Shown: one piece after another, positions 40,701 to 63,960 of the stretch
How the letters are laid out: each line of letters opens with the position of its first letter
How positions within the stretch are numbered: position 1 is the first letter of the stretch
From: Edaphobacter flagellatus
Lineage (GTDB): Bacteria > Acidobacteriota > Terriglobia > Terriglobales > Acidobacteriaceae
Direction: 5' to 3'
DNA: 64,000 nucleotides
NCBI RefSeq assembly: GCF_025264665.1
Contig: NZ_CP073697.1
Coordinates: 2,604,001-2,668,000, forward strand
Notes under the pieces: generated by a model
The model's database searches: none
Told to the model about the DNA's origin: nothing
The model's input: only the letters and a program-made list of their open reading frames with translations
Translations under genes and position numbers: made by a program

Positions 40701-40753
40701 AGGTGCGGGGGTTGGCGTAGCTTCGGCGTCCCCAACGAGCGTGCTCGCTGGGG
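40701..40753 (+). repeat. Degenerate relative of the tgcgggggtt repeat
   Basis: gtgcgggggttggc followed by tccccaacgagcgtgctcgctgggg; this internal palindrome matches the one in the copy at 63881 (ccccaacgagcaagctcgctgggg). The gctcggaatgac end is missing. It lies just upstream of prfA. Confidence 0.55.
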
Positions 40754-57074: not shown

Positions 57075-57102
57075 GAACGATTCCACGTGGATTGCGGTGA
57101 CC

Positions 57103-57129
57103 CCCAGGTCTGGAGTCGAGACCTGGGGT
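57103..57129. terminator. Hairpin between convergent genes
   Basis: Perfect 10-bp stem ccccaggtct/agacctgggg with loop ggagtcg; no U-run on either strand, so termination is uncertain. Confidence 0.45.
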
Positions 57130-57157: not shown

Positions 57158-57195
57158 AATGCGGGGGTTCTTCGCTTCGCTCGGAATGACCCTTC
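57158..57195 (+). repeat. tgcgggggtt...gctcggaatgac repeat, copy A (intergenic)
   Basis: aatgcgggggttcttcgc then gcttcgctcggaatgac and ccttcg. Compact 38-base form in the gap between the reductase gene and the secretin-N gene. Confidence 0.8.
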
Positions 57196-57211
57196 GTATA
57201 TTCATCCACCC

Positions 57212-58000
57212 TTAGTTCGTGATGGGTTCGACGGTGGCCTGGATTTCGGTGCGGCGCGTGGTGCCGGCGGTGTCAAGCGAGCCGATGGTAAGGGGTTTGC
57301 CAGGGGTGAGAGTGGAAATGCCCTCGTAGACGGCCTGGCGGAGGACGGGGTCTTGTGCAGTAGCTGAGGCTTCGACGACGCTGGATTGTTCGACCTTGGC
57401 TCTGAGACGGATGTTATTCGGCGATGCGTCATCGAGAGTGGCGTCGAAGCTCATGCCTACGTCGATGTACGCGACTTGCGATTGCGGATTGGTGGAATTT
57501 TTGAGATCAATCCCGGTGACGACAGGTACCTTGTTGCCCTGCTTAAGGGTGGTTCGCTGGCCGGGGAAGAGGACCATGCTGTAGTGCTGGTCGCCGATGC
57601 GTTTGGTTCCGTCGAAGTCGATGAGGGTGTAGGTGAGGCGATAGGTCTGGTGGCGGCGGTCGAGATCGTTGAGGATTTTTTCGACCTTCTCTATCTGGTC
57701 GGCTGTGGTGTCGATGACGATGGCACTTTGAGAGGGAACCAGGGTGATTTTGGCGCGCGGATCGAGAATGTTGCGCAATGCGGTGAGGACTTCATTCTGG
57801 TCGGCCTGGGAGCTGCTCTTGAGAAAGAAGGTGCGCAGGATGGTGGGGCCGCTGGGGAGCTGCGATTTGCAGGGCGCTGATTGAGGGGCGAGCCTGGGGG
57901 GCTCGGTAGGTGCCTGGGCTGCGGCGGTGAGTGGGAGAGCCGAGGTGAGCGCGAAGGCGATGGCGAGTCTGCTCGAGTGCGAGGTGCGTGGGAATGTCAT
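57212..58000 (-). CDS. Exported secretin-N-like protein (no secretin barrel)
   Basis: 262 residues with signal peptide (LAIAFALTSALPLTAAAQA). The segment FFLKSSSQADQNEVLTALRNI...DTTADQIEKVEKILNDLDR is a typical secretin N1/N-domain (NolW-like). The following part (YRLTYTLIDFDGTKR, GQRTTLKQGNKVPVV) resembles the beta region preceding secretin barrels, but the long barrel is missing. It is the third gene of a coupled operon: its start overlaps the stop of the membrane protein gene (ATGA). It could be a periplasmic adaptor to a secretin elsewhere or an independent signal protein. Confidence 0.78.
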   Translation of the reverse strand: MTFPRTSHSSRLAIAFALTSALPLTAAAQAPTEPPRLAPQSAPCKSQLPSGPTILRTFFLKSSSQADQNEVLTALRNILDPRAKITLVPSQSAIVIDTTADQIEKVEKILNDLDRRHQTYRLTYTLIDFDGTKRIGDQHYSMVLFPGQRTTLKQGNKVPVVTGIDLKNSTNPQSQVAYIDVGMSFDATLDDASPNNIRLRAKVEQSSVVEASATAQDPVLRQAVYEGISTLTPGKPLTIGSLDTAGTTRRTEIQATVEPITN

Positions 58001-58686
58001 TCACTTTCTCCAATGGTTGGGGGTGGCGGGGGCGGGGCAAAGAATGCGGTGAAATCGGCGGCTTCCTGCTGCTCGCGGGCGGCTTTGCGCTCGGCGGTAA
58101 TCTCGACGAGGTCGTTCGGATTGCCGTGGCGGGCGAAGCGGATCAGGAGCTTTTCCTGCTCGGTGAGCGGGAGAGGGGGCGCGGGGTGGCTGATGAGAGC
58201 GGTGGCTTCAGGCTGCGAGTCTGCGATGCGATTTGTCTGCGTGAGACGCGGTGGTGGTGCTGTGTGCGGTTGCAGCATAGGCGTGTGGGTGGTGATGGTT
58301 GCTGCTGCGATGCGGGGTTGCGATGTGTCGTTCGTAAGCGGGGTTGGAGGCGCTTGCACCGTGGGTGTTGTTGTGGGTTGGTGGCGGCGAGTCGCAATGA
58401 TGGGGATCACGAGGGCGAGGGCGACGGCGCAGGTGAGCGGTATCCAGCGCCAGCGAGGTGTGGCTGAGCTGGCAGTGTGAAATGCGGGGGTTCTTCTTCG
58501 CCCAGCGAACCAGTTCGCCGGGGACGCGGTTCCTCGGCGAGCGTCCGACTCGCTCGGAACGACGCCTTCGGTTGCAGCATCGAGAGTGTTGAGGATGCGC
58601 CGCTCCAGGCCGTAGGGAGGCGCGGCCTGGGTGAGGGCGTGGAGGACACGGTCGATCGTGTGATCTGGATTGCGATCCTGAGTCAT
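57997..58686 (-). CDS. Single-pass membrane protein, putative anti-sigma factor, with in-frame repeat insertion
   Basis: 229 residues. N-terminal cytoplasmic part of about 80 residues (IDRVLHALTQAAPPYGLERR), one membrane helix (WIPLTCAVALALVIPIIATR), a Pro/Thr-rich periplasmic linker and a C-terminal helical part (LIRFARHGNPNDLVEITAER) ending in a run of Pro. It lies between an ECF sigma gene and a secretin-N gene with 4-base overlaps on both sides, which makes an anti-sigma role likely; no zinc anti-sigma His-Cys motif is seen. Residues about 40-69 (VVPSESDARRGTASPANWF part) are encoded by copy B of the dispersed repeat, which has inserted without breaking the frame. Confidence 0.8.
   Translation of the reverse strand: MTQDRNPDHTIDRVLHALTQAAPPYGLERRILNTLDAATEGVVPSESDARRGTASPANWFAGRRRTPAFHTASSATPRWRWIPLTCAVALALVIPIIATRRHQPTTTPTVQAPPTPLTNDTSQPRIAAATITTHTPMLQPHTAPPPRLTQTNRIADSQPEATALISHPAPPLPLTEQEKLLIRFARHGNPNDLVEITAERKAAREQQEAADFTAFFAPPPPPPTIGESE
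58481..58570 (+). repeat. tgcgggggtt repeat, copy B (inside the membrane-protein gene)
   Basis: aatgcgggggttcttcttcg, then a nested block (cgcccagcgaaccagttcgc, ggttcctcgg) and the end gactcgctcggaacgacgcc. Length 90, a multiple of three, inside an open frame. Confidence 0.75.
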
Positions 58687-59237
58687 CGGTAGCCTGCTTT
58701 CTCGAGTCGGGCGCGCAGGCGGGTGCGTGCGCGGAAGAGGAGTCCGCGGACAGCGGCTGGGGAACGGCCGGTGATGGCGGCGATCTCTGCTGTGTCGAGC
58801 TCGTCGATGGAGGAGAGGAGGAGGGTCTGGCGTTCGAGTTTTGGGAGGCGTTCGATCTCGTCGAGTGCGGCGAGCATGTGGCGGCGCTCGTCGAGGGAGC
58901 GGTCGGCGGGAAGACCGGGGGCGATGAGGGAGTCGATGAATACGGAGTCGGTGGGGCGTGACTTGCGGCGGCGCAGGCGGTCGAGGGCGAGATTCCAGGT
59001 GATGCGGACGAGCCAGACGCGGGTGTCGCGGATGGCGGGCAGAGCGGAGGGGCGCTGGAGGACGCGGAGGAAGGTGTCCTGGACGACGTCTTCGGCTTCG
59101 GCGGGGGAGCGGAGGAGGGAGTGGGCGACGCGGAAGAGGAGGGCAGAGTGGGTCTCGACGAGAGCGGTGAGGTCAGCTTCCGACTCGGCGCTCTTGATGG
59201 ACGACAGCAATGCCAGGCTTTCCTCGAACGATGCCAT
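58683..59237 (-). CDS. ECF-type RNA polymerase sigma factor
   Basis: 184-residue sigma-70-family protein with regions 2 and 4 only. Region 2: FRVAHSLLRSPAEAEDVVQD and TFLRVLQRPSALPAIRDTRV; region 4: LDTAEIAAITGRSPAAVRGL followed by LFRARTRLRARLEKAG. Region 3 and 1.1 are missing, typical of ECF sigma factors. The start is the ATG at 59237 (MASFEESLALL); the open frame continues upstream to 59873 but that is the opposite strand of a reductase gene. The stop overlaps the start of the membrane protein gene. It probably controls its own operon; target promoters are unknown. Confidence 0.92.
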   Translation of the reverse strand: MASFEESLALLSSIKSAESEADLTALVETHSALLFRVAHSLLRSPAEAEDVVQDTFLRVLQRPSALPAIRDTRVWLVRITWNLALDRLRRRKSRPTDSVFIDSLIAPGLPADRSLDERRHMLAALDEIERLPKLERQTLLLSSIDELDTAEIAAITGRSPAAVRGLLFRARTRLRARLEKAGYR

Positions 59238-59432
59238 AGAGAGTGTTCTACAGCACAGACGCGTGGGGTCGCGTTGCGTTCGGAGATTTTGTGATTTGGG
59301 GTAGATGGTTGCTGGCTCTGTGGTTGTCTGGGGGGAATAGGGGCTCGACTGCGTCGCTTGGAGTGCTGTGCTCGGCATGACAGTTTGGCTGCCAAAGTTG
59401 TTCGTCGATCGCAACGGCGGTAGTCTTGCGGC

Positions 59433-59981
<549 letters not shown>

Positions 59982-60033
59982 CGATGAGCTTGTTCGTTGC
60001 GTCGAATGCATCCGCCAGGTTGTCTCTGCGGGG

Positions 60034-61254
60034 CTAGTTGGGTCTCGCGGCTCCAGGATTCGATGCAGGAGCAGCTGTGCGGACTTTTACAGACATGGTA
60101 TGTCTGGGGACGCCGTTGACGCTCGGTGAAGCCTTCAGGAAGGTTCCGGCCTGAGTATCGTGCTTCAGGTAGAAGTCGAGGAAGGCCTGCGTGTATTGCA
60201 TGACCCAGGAGAAGGCGACTACGCCGTCGGCATAGTCGTAGTCTGCGACCTGCAGGTTGGTGAGTTCCTTCTCCCAAAGCTCTTCGTTGCGATAGGCGTT
60301 GGAGTAGAACTCGGGATGGAAGAGGCCCAGCATGTGCACGGTGATCAGGTCGCCGTGAAGCCACTGATTGAGAACGTTTGGCCCTTCGGCGTGAAAGCGG
60401 CTGTTGAGCTTGTCCTGATCTTCGAGGGATTGATCGCCTTCCTCGAAGTAGATCAGGGGAATTGTCATCTGGTCCGGGTGGACGGTTCCGGAGGCTTGAA
60501 CCAGGCCGGGGAAATAGCGCTCGCTGCCGTCGAGTGAGACGAGTGCCTTGATGCGCGGATCGCGGGAAGCGGCGAAGAGATTGGCGAGTCCTCCCCAGCT
60601 GAAGCCTATGGCGGCTACCTTCGTCCTATCGGTGTCCGGAAGCGTGGCTGCGTAGTTGATCAGGAAGATGATGTCTTTAGCCTGAGCATCGACGCCTTGA
60701 AGATCGTGAGTGGATTCACGTGAGTTCGCTCCCATGGCCGGACTTGAGATCACAACATAACCGTGGCTTGCGAGGTATTCGCACAGGTCGGCATTCTGCC
60801 ATGTCCCAGAGCTGAAGCTAGGAGAGTAGATGACGACGGGAAAGTGGCCATCTTCAAAATGCGCGTCACGGACGGCTGACATGACTTGTCCTGAGGCCTT
60901 TTGAAACCATTCCTGCAGGCGTTCCGTGTCTTTTGTTCGTGTGGGTTTGCCGAAGGTGGTTTCGGTTTCGATCATTGCGAGATAGTCCCGCATGGTCATC
61001 GTGGGTTGATCGCTTTTCTGCGCGGGATACCAGATAACCGTCTGCACAGGGCGAGGGTGTTCTGCCTGAGCTTGATCTGTGCCGAAGTTGCGTGTGCGGT
61101 CGTACTGCTCGACGAGCTTCACGCCGACGGCGTGTGGGCCGGGCTTTACCTGGAACTTTACAGCGGCGTAGTTTTGGGCGAGAACGGGTGAGATCGCTCC
61201 CAGAAGAATGCAATAAAGAGCTGCCAGGCGGCATAACGGCATGAGGTGCCTCAT
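60034..61254 (-). CDS. Exported dienelactone-hydrolase/PAF-acetylhydrolase-like alpha/beta hydrolase
   Basis: About 406 residues with signal peptide (LAALYCILLGAISPVLAQ). Core motifs: FPVVIYSPSFSSGTWQN, YVVISSPAMGANSR, and the nucleophile elbow AAIGFSWGGLANLF (GFSWG). It resembles platelet-activating-factor acetylhydrolase and poly-ester hydrolases more than classical lipases. The catalytic His is probably in LGLFHPEFY. Initiation is uncertain between 61254 and in-frame sites up to 61323, where repeat copy C lies; 61254 is preferred because it starts the signal peptide. Substrate unknown. Confidence 0.83.
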   Translation of the reverse strand: MRHLMPLCRLAALYCILLGAISPVLAQNYAAVKFQVKPGPHAVGVKLVEQYDRTRNFGTDQAQAEHPRPVQTVIWYPAQKSDQPTMTMRDYLAMIETETTFGKPTRTKDTERLQEWFQKASGQVMSAVRDAHFEDGHFPVVIYSPSFSSGTWQNADLCEYLASHGYVVISSPAMGANSRESTHDLQGVDAQAKDIIFLINYAATLPDTDRTKVAAIGFSWGGLANLFAASRDPRIKALVSLDGSERYFPGLVQASGTVHPDQMTIPLIYFEEGDQSLEDQDKLNSRFHAEGPNVLNQWLHGDLITVHMLGLFHPEFYSNAYRNEELWEKELTNLQVADYDYADGVVAFSWVMQYTQAFLDFYLKHDTQAGTFLKASPSVNGVPRHTMSVKVRTAAPASNPGAARPN

Positions 61255-61337
61255 GTTTGGAATTACAGTCTTTGTACCTTTACGTCGTAGGGGAAGCATC
61301 CGTTCCATTCGCCGGATCCCCATGGCGGTGCGGGCGA

Positions 61338-61376
61338 AATGCGGGGGTTCCTCGCTTGGCTCGGAATGACACCTTC
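61338..61376 (+). repeat. tgcgggggtt repeat, copy C (intergenic)
   Basis: aatgcgggggttcctcgctt followed by ggctcggaatgacaccttc; compact form, between two minus-strand genes. Confidence 0.8.
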
Positions 61377-61403
61377 AAAACGCAGACAACCTGCAACTGA
61401 CAA

Positions 61404-62669
61404 CTAATCCACGGTGGCGATCATGGCTGCGAGCAGCGCGGTGCGTGGAGCGAGGTGCTGGATTTCGATGTGCTCGTGGGCGGCGTGGGCTCCGGTGCCT
61501 ACGGCTCCCATGCCGTCGAGGGTGGGGATGCCGAGGGCGGCGGTGAAGTTGCCGTCGGAACCTCCGCCGGTTCCGGCCTCTTCGAGGGGGAAGCCGAGCT
61601 CGGCGGCTAGTTTTTTGGCCTGCTTGAAGAGGGCGACGGTGCCGGGCTTGCGCTCCATGGGCGGGCGGTTGATGCCTCCGGTGACGGTGAGCTTGCAGGC
61701 TTTGTCGAAGGGCTTGAGGGACGAGAAGAAGCGGTCGACTTTTTGTGCGTCGGAGGCGCGAGCGATACGGACGTCGATTTCGACGTAGGCTTCGGCGGCG
61801 ATGACGTTGGAGCGGGTGCCTCCGGCGATGACGCCGGGGTTGACGGTGAGTCCGCGGCGGAGGTCGGTGAAGGCGGCGATCTTTTCGATCTGGCGGGCGA
61901 GCTCGAGGACGGCGGAGTGGCCGCGCTGGAAATCGACGCCGGAGTGTGCGCCGATGCCGGTGACGTGGACGCGATAGTTGCCGATGCCTTTGCGCGAGGT
62001 CTTGAGGGCGGCGGTTTTGCTATCGAGAATTTGGGCGGGTTCGAGGACGAAGACGGCGGAGGATTCGCGCGCGAGTTTTTCGGTGATGGGACGCGAGATG
62101 GGCGAGCCGACCTCTTCTTCGGAGTTGATGAGCAGGGTGACGGGGCGGCGGAGGAGGGAGAGTTTCTGGAGGACGGAGATGGCGGTGAGGGCCATGACGA
62201 CTCCGGCCTTCATGTCGAGTGTGCCGGGGCCGTAGATTTTGCCGGCGTCTTCGCGCCAGGGCATGGAGCGGAGGGTGCCGTGGGGCCAGACGGTGTCAAG
62301 GTGCGAGAGCAGAAGGATGGGTTTCTGTCTGGATCGCTGCGGGCCGAAGCGGAGTTCGTAGACGTCGCCGAAGGGAGCGTCTGTGGTGGCATGGGCAGAA
62401 TGCGGGGGTTCCTCGGCTTTGCTGCGCTTCGCTCGGAATGACACTTCTTCGTTGCCTTTTTGGCTCGCTCGGAATGACACTCTCCCTTTCTGCCGGTGGC
62501 GTTTGACGCGGGCTCCGAGGGCTTCGGCCCAGGTTGCGGTGAGCTGTTGGGCGGCGTTGACGGCGGCGGGGTCTTCGCTGGGGCTTTCGACGAGGACGAG
62601 CTCGCGGAGGTGTTCGAGGAGCCAGGGGGTTTCCTGCTGGGTACGGGCGAGGAGTTGGGCGAAGTCCAT
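61404..62669 (-). CDS. M20-family metallopeptidase with in-frame repeat insertion
   Basis: 421-residue zinc peptidase or deacylase of the M20/carboxypeptidase-G2 type. Metal and catalytic motifs: LLLSHLDTVWPHG (His, Asp), GPGTLDMKAGVV (bridging Asp), INSEEEVGS (catalytic Glu-Glu), and HAAHEHIEI near the end; the dimerisation domain contains TGIGAHSGVD. Residues about 62-91 (GRVSFRASQKGNEEVSFRA and KRSKAEEPPHS) are encoded by repeat copy D and interrupt the normal link between the first helix and the catalytic domain. The start ATG at 62669 precedes MDFAQLLARTQQ. It probably still folds because the frame and all active-site residues are kept. Confidence 0.88.
   Translation of the reverse strand: MDFAQLLARTQQETPWLLEHLRELVLVESPSEDPAAVNAAQQLTATWAEALGARVKRHRQKGRVSFRASQKGNEEVSFRAKRSKAEEPPHSAHATTDAPFGDVYELRFGPQRSRQKPILLLSHLDTVWPHGTLRSMPWREDAGKIYGPGTLDMKAGVVMALTAISVLQKLSLLRRPVTLLINSEEEVGSPISRPITEKLARESSAVFVLEPAQILDSKTAALKTSRKGIGNYRVHVTGIGAHSGVDFQRGHSAVLELARQIEKIAAFTDLRRGLTVNPGVIAGGTRSNVIAAEAYVEIDVRIARASDAQKVDRFFSSLKPFDKACKLTVTGGINRPPMERKPGTVALFKQAKKLAAELGFPLEEAGTGGGSDGNFTAALGIPTLDGMGAVGTGAHAAHEHIEIQHLAPRTALLAAMIATVD
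62399..62486 (+). repeat. tgcgggggtt repeat, copy D (inside M20 peptidase gene)
   Basis: aatgcgggggttcctcggc then cttcgctcggaatgacac, and a second, partial tail (ggctcgctcggaatgacac) 36 bases later. All inside an open frame. Confidence 0.8.
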
Positions 62670-62865
62670 GCTAAGTCTCACTAGATGCCTGATTTGTCGT
62701 GGTTTACAGGACGAATGAAAGACGAAAGTGTGTCTAAATTGCAACACAAAAAAGAGTTGACCCGTCTGTAACCTAGTAGCTGGAATTTTAGAGCAGTTCC
62801 GCTATGGTGTTGTGAGCTTTTGGAGTTGCTTTGACGGAGACCCTTGGTTCGGAGAGTTTAGCTTC

Positions 62866-63786
62866 GTGAGATCGCAGGTGCACCTGGAATGCACAATCCG
62901 GTCGGCGATTGAGTTCAGTGGAGTAGGGCTGCACTCGGGGGCTCCGGTGTCGATGCGGTTGGTTCCGGCTCCGGCTGGTTCGGGCATCGTCTTTCGCAGG
63001 ACCGATCTGGACAACTTCGAGATTACGGCGACGGGGCGGAACGTGGCGAAGGTGAGTTACGCGACGAGCCTGATGCGCGGGTCGGTGCTGATCTCGACGA
63101 CGGAGCATCTGTTGAGCGCGCTGATTGGCTATGGGGTCGATAACGTCATCGTCGAAATCAACAACCTTGAAGTGCCAATTCTGGATGGCAGTGCGCTGCC
63201 GTATATTCGCGCGTTTGAAGAAACAGGGCTGAAGCAGCAGCGGCGTCGGCGTGAGTACATGCGCATCCTCAAAGATGTTGAGGTGCGCGACGGTGCGAAG
63301 TTTATCGGCGTGTATCCGGGCAAGGGCTACCAGATCGACTACATGATTGATTTTCCGGAGCCGATTGGCGTGGAGGGATTTCGCGGCGACCTGGCGACGG
63401 GCGATTATGCGCGGCTGATTGCTCCGGCGCGTACGTTTGGGTTTAAGGAAGACGAGGCGATGTTGCGGAACATGGGATTGATCCGCGGCGTTTCGGACGA
63501 CAGCGCAATTATTCTTTCGCGCAAGGGCGTGGAGAATGGTCCGCTGCGCTTTGACGATGAATTTGTGCGGCACAAGGTGCTGGACCTGATCGGCGATCTT
63601 GCCCTGGCGGGACGCAGGATCGAAGGCCGCGTGGTGGCGGAGCGCGCGGGACATGCGATGCATACGGCCCTGGTGCAGCGATTGCTGAAGGATCGCAGCG
63701 CGTGGGAGCTGGCGCATGTGCATGATGAAGTGCATGAGCCGGAGACGGCGCGGGCTTCGGTGAGTATGCAGCCCGTTACGGTTTAG
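62866..63786 (+). CDS. lpxC: UDP-3-O-acyl-N-acetylglucosamine deacetylase
   Basis: 306-residue zinc deacetylase, the committed step of lipid A synthesis, cytoplasmic. Conserved parts: TIRSAIEFSGVGLHSGAPVS, zinc-ligand region STTEHLLSAL, LDGSALPYI, HKVLDLIGDLALAG (His and Asp) and RAGHAMHTALV (His). A GTG at 62866 after cggagag gives the standard N-terminus; GTG at 62812 is the longer alternative. It is alone here, not in a lpxC-fabZ-lpxA operon. Length is normal. Confidence 0.95.
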   Translation: MRSQVHLECTIRSAIEFSGVGLHSGAPVSMRLVPAPAGSGIVFRRTDLDNFEITATGRNVAKVSYATSLMRGSVLISTTEHLLSALIGYGVDNVIVEINNLEVPILDGSALPYIRAFEETGLKQQRRRREYMRILKDVEVRDGAKFIGVYPGKGYQIDYMIDFPEPIGVEGFRGDLATGDYARLIAPARTFGFKEDEAMLRNMGLIRGVSDDSAIILSRKGVENGPLRFDDEFVRHKVLDLIGDLALAGRRIEGRVVAERAGHAMHTALVQRLLKDRSAWELAHVHDEVHEPETARASVSMQPVTV

Positions 63787-63880
63787 GGTTTCCTGAGACA
63801 TTCTGCGAAGCGCACATCCGGCAAATGAAGGTGCCAGATATGGGGCACCTGATCCTGATGATGCTGTGGCTGGGATGAGA

Positions 63881-63960
63881 AATGCGGGGGTTGCTTTCAC
63901 CCCAACGAGCAAGCTCGCTGGGGACCCCGGTCCTCGGCTCCGCTCGGAATGACACCTTCT
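63881..63960 (+). repeat. tgcgggggtt repeat, copy E (intergenic)
   Basis: aatgcgggggttgctttcac, an inner palindrome (ccccaacgagcaagctcgct and gggg), then ggtcctcggctccgctcgg and aatgacacc. Longest form; the inner palindrome also occurs at 40701-40753. Confidence 0.8.

Follow-up and report, generated by a model that had tools for sequence, protein, structure and literature searches.

A short GTCA-tagged palindromic repeat between and within genes of Edaphobacter flagellatus is probably a nonautonomous mobile element

What kind of element leaves five short palindromic copies in a single orientation within 7 kb of a bacterial chromosome, two of them inside genes? The question arises from a 64,000-nt stretch of the soil bacterium Edaphobacter flagellatus (the window; bases 2,604,001–2,668,000 of a single 4.45-Mb contig, in the genome labeled G000), where the original prediction placed copies of a dispersed repeat at 57158, 58481, 61338, 62399, and 63881. 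All five are present at these positions and read in the same direction, and the repeat is commoner than in shuffled sequence: allowing at most one mismatch, AATGCGGGGGTT occurs five times in the window and GCTCGGAATGAC seven times (shuffle means 0.35 and 0.49; 0/100 shuffles had as many in either case). We consider it probable that this is a short nonautonomous mobile repeat of the TGTC/CGTC-tagged palindromic kind, working like repetitive extragenic palindromes (REPs) and Rickettsia palindromic elements (RPEs).

Insertion is shown for an M20 peptidase gene (PF01546; 61404..62669, minus strand; strands given for features are those of the GTCATT strand of each copy). Here 115 nt (62373..62487, minus) replace 4 nt of the empty site, a net addition of 111 nt in frame, or 37 residues, comprising a full 44-nt copy in the SFRA frame (62399..62442, minus) and a second, diverged copy lying head-to-tail with it (62443..62478, minus). 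The 37 residues are absent from the genes of all 54 relatives that span the site, drawn from Edaphobacter, Granulicella, and other Acidobacteriaceae; both same-genus genomes searched lack them. In 45/54 relatives the alignment shows a gap of 36 or 37 residues, while the other nine align less cleanly, including two (L098 and L109) with other residues aligned under part of the insert. The M20 insert is thus a true insertion of the repeat into a coding gene, and the empty orthologous sites that the original prediction had named as support for a mobile repeat exist.

The repeat extends far beyond the window. A strict two-end pattern finds 32 copies genome-wide (17 and 15 on the two strands), while a control with the reversed two-end pattern has no match genome-wide. 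A covariance model built from these 32 copies (R1), which they match by construction, was applied to the best 150 of 2720 first-look candidates and recovers at least 82 copies at E < 0.01 and at least 102 at E ≤ 1. The expectation of many genome-wide copies with conserved ends was therefore borne out, whereas the single orientation reported for the window is local, since the strict copies divide between the strands. Among 90 copies, just one pair (2524072/2524169) is oppositely oriented and no more than 200 nt apart.

Copies inside genes are read in frame. With gene calls from a custom script (85% coverage of 364 kb), 7/90 copies lie inside predicted genes, all in the sense direction and in frame, so that the likeness to RPEs drawn by the original prediction holds in behavior. 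The hosts are lysS, recQ, metG, mutS2, an anti-sigma-like gene, the M20 peptidase gene, and a gene in which a membrane segment was recognized by eye; the names lysS, metG, mutS2, and M20 have database support, and recQ and the anti-sigma-like gene were named from sequence and position. The repeat is hence tolerated in frame in essential genes, including two for tRNA-charging enzymes (lysS and metG). The GTCA strand is stop-free in all three sense frames in 65/90 copies, compared with 4/90 for antisense; mononucleotide shuffles had all three frames open in a mean of 16 and a maximum of 26, although the copies are not independent of one another.

The two synthetase genes show how such insertions differ among relatives. 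Set against solved structures and relatives, lysyl-tRNA synthetase is about 47 residues longer between its OB-fold and catalytic domains (relative to Escherichia coli LysU), and methionyl-tRNA synthetase is longer by about 45. In lysS the stem is TTCC/GGAA in G000, TCCT/AGGA in G034 (same genus), and TTCT/AGAA in G064 (same family), and in G098 and G031 this locus holds different hairpin-forming sequence. The lysS loop, readable in 30/37 loci (G000 included), has 6 residues in 19 and 16–86 residues in 11, and 3 of these 11 long loops contain a GTCAT element. In metG, G000 has the stem TTCC/GGAA, G034 has TCCT/AGGA, and G098 (same genus) has TTCT/AGAA. Between G000 and G098 the metG stems differ but the tails are similar, which favors one old insertion whose stem later underwent compensatory change or conversion; independent insertions are also possible.

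Covariation across relatives defines the hairpin. The structural pattern GTCA-N4-GA-loop-GA-N4′ has 52 matches in 0.87 Mb of relatives' DNA (a sample gathered around a different gene), compared with 6–12 for five permuted tags, and one match in a 0.28-Mb actinobacterial control. Five stems account for 43/52 matches: TCCT (16), TTCT (16), TCTC (8), TTTC (2), and TTCC (1); the remaining nine look like chance matches. Among 26 ungapped cores, a set partly picked for pairing, 92.9% of cells are paired (85.0% in shuffles), 22 cells are altered on both sides (7.5 in shuffles), the covariation score was reached by 0/500 shuffles, and sliding the partner lowers pairing to 55% or less. The number of pairs with two-sided change in these cores (three) is unremarkable, being found in 255/500 shuffles. 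A set of 40 sequences, picked by tag, GA dinucleotides, and loop rather than by pairing and including some rows misframed from longer hairpins, has 163/200 cells paired against a maximum of 157 in 2000 shuffles. These shuffles ignore kinship among the sequences. Across sub-types, then, compensatory changes preserve the Watson–Crick pairing of the stem, next to which the GA dinucleotides are conserved.

The general layout on the GTCA strand is YGTCA, a 4-bp stem, GA, a variable apical hairpin, GA, the returning stem, and a tail. Strict copies read GTCA-TTCC-GA-...-GA-GGAA-CCCCCGCATT, mostly with T before and with a weaker common 3′ extension, the constancy of the ends and the CCCCCGCATT tail of these 32 copies being a product of their selection. 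Common outer ends had been claimed for the window copies; they are conserved genome-wide, and at 58481 the second end is imperfect (GGAACGAC). Longer copies have arms of differing sequence around an apical loop of mostly 3 nt. Tandem G.A pairs can be stabilizing, and the complementary strand has T and C at the positions of the GA dinucleotides; we infer that the GTCA strand is the folding strand, with tandem G·A pairs. Two copies were folded with a 2-nt flank: both adopt the expected fold under RNA parameters, and one of them adopts a related fold under DNA parameters. The stem-GA-hairpin is the RNA minimum in 22/34 copies (23 if the 58481 composite is counted). The apex of the shortest copies is GCGAAGC, described as an extraordinarily thermostable DNA mini-hairpin in a passage of PMC10527192 that cites Yoshizawa 1994.

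A mobile repeat of this build could work as follows. The GTCA strand would be the active strand, folding as single-stranded DNA with its GA dinucleotides as tandem G.A pairs, and the repeat would be copied by an enzyme that recognizes the tag plus hairpin and either acts in trans or has since been lost. Copies would persist where they are harmless, behind genes and in protein linkers, and a GTCA strand that is mostly stop-free in all three frames may help them survive in proteins.

The repeat is widespread in the family, and so is a candidate transposase. Model R1 has matches in 37/120 family genomes, and a structure-aware model (R2) in 112/120 genomes and 77/79 genera; with R2, 56 candidates were scored per genome, so copy counts are lower bounds, and copy number differs strongly among related genomes. 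The Y1 transposase family PF01797 is present in 105/120 genomes. These distributions bear on a first alternative, that the repeat is a usual REP moved by a REP-associated tyrosine transposase (RAYT; Y1, HUH) since lost from this lineage, which we consider possible though unlikely. Its 5′ tetranucleotide plus hairpin is REP-like, and Y1 is lacking more often in genomes without the repeat (4/8 vs. 11/112, P = 0.008; both present in 101, repeat only in 11, Y1 only in 4, neither in 4), a weak association. However, no PF01797 gene was found in this genome or in G034, which are among nine Y1-less genomes of the 39 with at least 40 copies (five of the nine being assemblies of 85% completeness or less), and repeat and Y1 counts are uncorrelated across the 120 genomes (rho 0.15, P = 0.10). 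When the 1.5 kb or so on each side of 20 Y1 genes (part of those from the 105 genomes, some near contig ends) were scanned with a strict structural pattern, none proved to be flanked by a copy; one copy lay about 1.2 kb from a Y1 gene. CGTC repeats, in the excerpts of Di Nocera et al. 2013 (PMC3733652), likewise have no adjacent transposase gene. An ordinary RAYT-driven REP was rejected on the lack of a detected Y1 in this genome and on the 0/20 flanked Y1 genes.

Replication polarity was also compared in three genomes. The GTCA strand lies opposite the leading strand in 57/82 copies of this genome (origin by dnaA, consistent with GC skew; terminus assumed opposite) and is similarly biased in G119 (55/85 copies, P = 0.009, using 85 of its 87 copies), where the origin was estimated from GC skew and shifts of up to 600 kb turn 55 into 43 to 55. 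Such polarity would suit a usual REP, but G047 shows no strand bias (35/65, with noisy GC skew), and a general replication-strand bias was set aside as it is present in this genome and G119 and absent in G047. Separately, in this genome 10/11 copies at C1:1.43–2.10 Mb are on the minus strand, whereas that replichore otherwise tends the other way, and the GC skew of one bin there (3 loci) is reversed; an inversion of this segment is possible.

A broader proposal than the mobile repeat of this genome would be a family-wide superfamily of palindromes, defined by tandem G.A pairs on a single DNA strand, that spreads without Y1 and either settles again and again in the same linkers of essential aminoacyl-tRNA synthetases or swaps its stem in place (by compensatory change or conversion), a hairpin being maintained inside the coding gene. 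We offer this as a speculative extension, quite unlikely as a whole.

Placement relative to genes raises a second alternative, that the repeat is an RNA element selected in transcript 3′ ends, for stability or termination, and not mainly a mobile parasite. Among 81 intergenic copies with both neighbors called, 32 are in convergent and 11 in divergent gaps (31 and 48 in control gaps; P = 0.0003), and in tandem gaps of this genome 30 copies are sense and 8 antisense (P = 0.0005), the sense copies lying a median of 38 nt past the stop of the upstream gene. That gene is head-on to replication in 24/30 sense cases vs. 84/182 control 3′ ends (P = 0.0006). The excess of convergent over divergent gaps recurs in G119 (15:4) and G047 (10:2), and GTCA-strand RNA can fold with GA/GA loops. 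For G119, 55/87 copies were looked at (5 unresolved, 46 with both neighbors); for G047, 35/65 (32 with both neighbors). An RNA element is nonetheless improbable: the tandem-gap sense bias is absent in G119 (14:13) and G047 (8:12), where gene-call coverage is poorer than in this genome (77% and 69%), promoter avoidance alone could account for the convergent excess, and neither in-frame copies inside proteins nor an empty orthologous site fits such an element. Transcription-linked insertion as a family-wide rule, which the 30:8 ratio of this genome had suggested, was dropped on the same G119 and G047 counts. Finally, a polar chromosome-architecture motif, with its G-rich strand on the leading strand, could claim the strand biases of G000 and G119 but is very improbable given the absence of bias in G047, the hairpin covariation, the insertion history, and the strongly differing copy numbers between related genomes.

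Several observations weigh against the mobile-repeat interpretation itself. Two copies tested fold no more stably than their shuffles (z −0.5 to −0.75 with DNA parameters and −1.1 to −1.4 with RNA parameters), and the opposite strand is lower in RNA energy in 31/34 copies, via other folds; folding energies thus fail to single out the active strand, which slightly lowers our confidence. The M20 insert, the sole site dissected, has no clear target-site duplication, and no mobilizer was identified in a search that covered Y1 alone among transposase families. The weak repeat/Y1 association leaves room for a role of Y1, the tandem-gap sense bias is not shared by G119 and G047, and movement within the species was not seen, one strain being covered.

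The remaining window copies illustrate the range of forms, all with the GTCATT strand on the minus strand. A 33-nt copy at 57158..57190 lies in a convergent gene gap and has one stem mismatch (TTCC/AGAA), and another at 61338..61370 lies in the sense direction about 33 nt past the M20 peptidase stop codon. An 83-nt composite copy at 58481..58563 has a second, nested hairpin and lies in frame (VVPSE...) in a predicted gene (57997..58686, minus) beside a sigma-70-family gene; the host open reading frame has no Pfam match and is anti-sigma-like by position only. With the 62399 copy in the M20 gene, it makes two window copies inside genes, as predicted. A 73-nt composite copy downstream of lpxC (63881..63953) carries a nested CCCCAGCGAGC..GCTCGTTGGGG hairpin. 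The second, nested hairpin of the 58481 and 63881 copies is CCCCAGCGAGC..GCTCGTTGGGG or a near variant. The degenerate copy proposed near 40701 (40704..40753, minus) shares the nested hairpin, plus AACCCCCGCA, but lacks the GTCA tag.

Some further sequences lie beside or among these copies. In 592 kb of this genome, much of it chosen around such copies, the nested hairpin CCCCAGCGAGC..GCTCGTTGGGG has seven sites, 6/7 inside or overlapping model-detected copies, which points to repeated copying of one composite unit. A second sub-type starting GTCATCCTG lies head-to-tail behind four family copies of this genome, in their 3′ flanks (L003, L004, L012, and L017). The sequence at 59340–59382 (minus strand; TGTCATGCCGAGC...GTCGAGCCCC) is likely an eroded extra copy, of which only the GCTCGGCATGAC end was flagged in the end search. 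A different hairpin, CCCCAGGTCTGGAGTCGAGACCTGGGG, occupies 57102–57128, about 30 nt from the 57158 copy; in G098 and G031, hairpins resembling it occur in the linkers of lysS and metG, and a related pattern has no match in the 592 kb. No Rfam family matches the window at gathering threshold. In collections of viral contigs and plasmids, in which vectors and host DNA were not told apart, a degenerate 25-nt core was found in 104 stretches of IMG/VR contigs and a relative in Granulicella and Calothrix plasmids (4 records); a phage collection had none.

The repeat, which most genomes of a single bacterial family contain, is a close analogue of the CGTC-type palindromes and has a defined, assayable structure. 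Excerpts of PMC3733652 reported the CGTC type in 2013 without a dedicated transposase; here several near-complete genomes have many copies and no detected Y1, which narrows the search for the mover. The lysS and metG insertions join the REP insertions described there for tRNA synthetase and repair genes of other bacteria, and here the stem type at the same site differs among related species. Ordinary REPs, too, occur inside genes (PMC3733652, section 15), so that the contrast with them originally drawn from in-gene copies falls away, and the passages found of PMC6006769 describe TnpA-REP together with REPs that have inserted in frame into the TnpA-REP gene itself. The passages found of PMC12306157 count REPs of one Granulicella and do not mention this family, and no title or abstract opening among the matches listed for this repeat or for acidobacterial palindromes in the open-access literature, the part of the literature searched, describes it.

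Among known systems, GTAG REPs and REPINs with RAYT (TnpA-REP) resemble the repeat in their 5′ tetranucleotide at the hairpin foot, dispersion, and frequent position 3′ of genes, but their tag is GT[AG]G rather than YGTCA, and here 0/20 Y1 genes are flanked and this genome has no Y1 found. The CGTC-tagged REPs (CGTC-1 to CGTC-4), as excerpted from Di Nocera et al., have stems starting AT, come from five phyla that do not include Acidobacteria, and have no transposase gene alongside, as here for Y1, the only family searched. They share with this repeat the YGTC tag (YGTCA in 25/26 rows of alignment A3 and in 37/41 structure-selected relatives), small size, and copies both between and within genes. 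Their stems have A-T as first and T-A as second pair; here the second pair is U-A in 26/26 and the first A-U in 16/26 and unpaired in 10, the main type of this genome having A.C. Their 8–9-bp stem and 4–5-nt loop differ from the 4–5 bp, GA/GA, 2 bp, and 3-nt loop, or longer nested hairpins, of this repeat; their tail is CCA, whereas most A3 rows are non-CCA and a few TCCA; and head-to-head dimers predominate among them, whereas this repeat is mostly in single copies. RPEs have hosts of a different phylum and are likened to the repeat by behavior, not by RPE sequence, in that in-frame insertion is tolerated in proteins; the same excerpts file RPE-4 as CGTC-4 and RPE-6 as CGTC-1, under the CGTC-tagged repeats.

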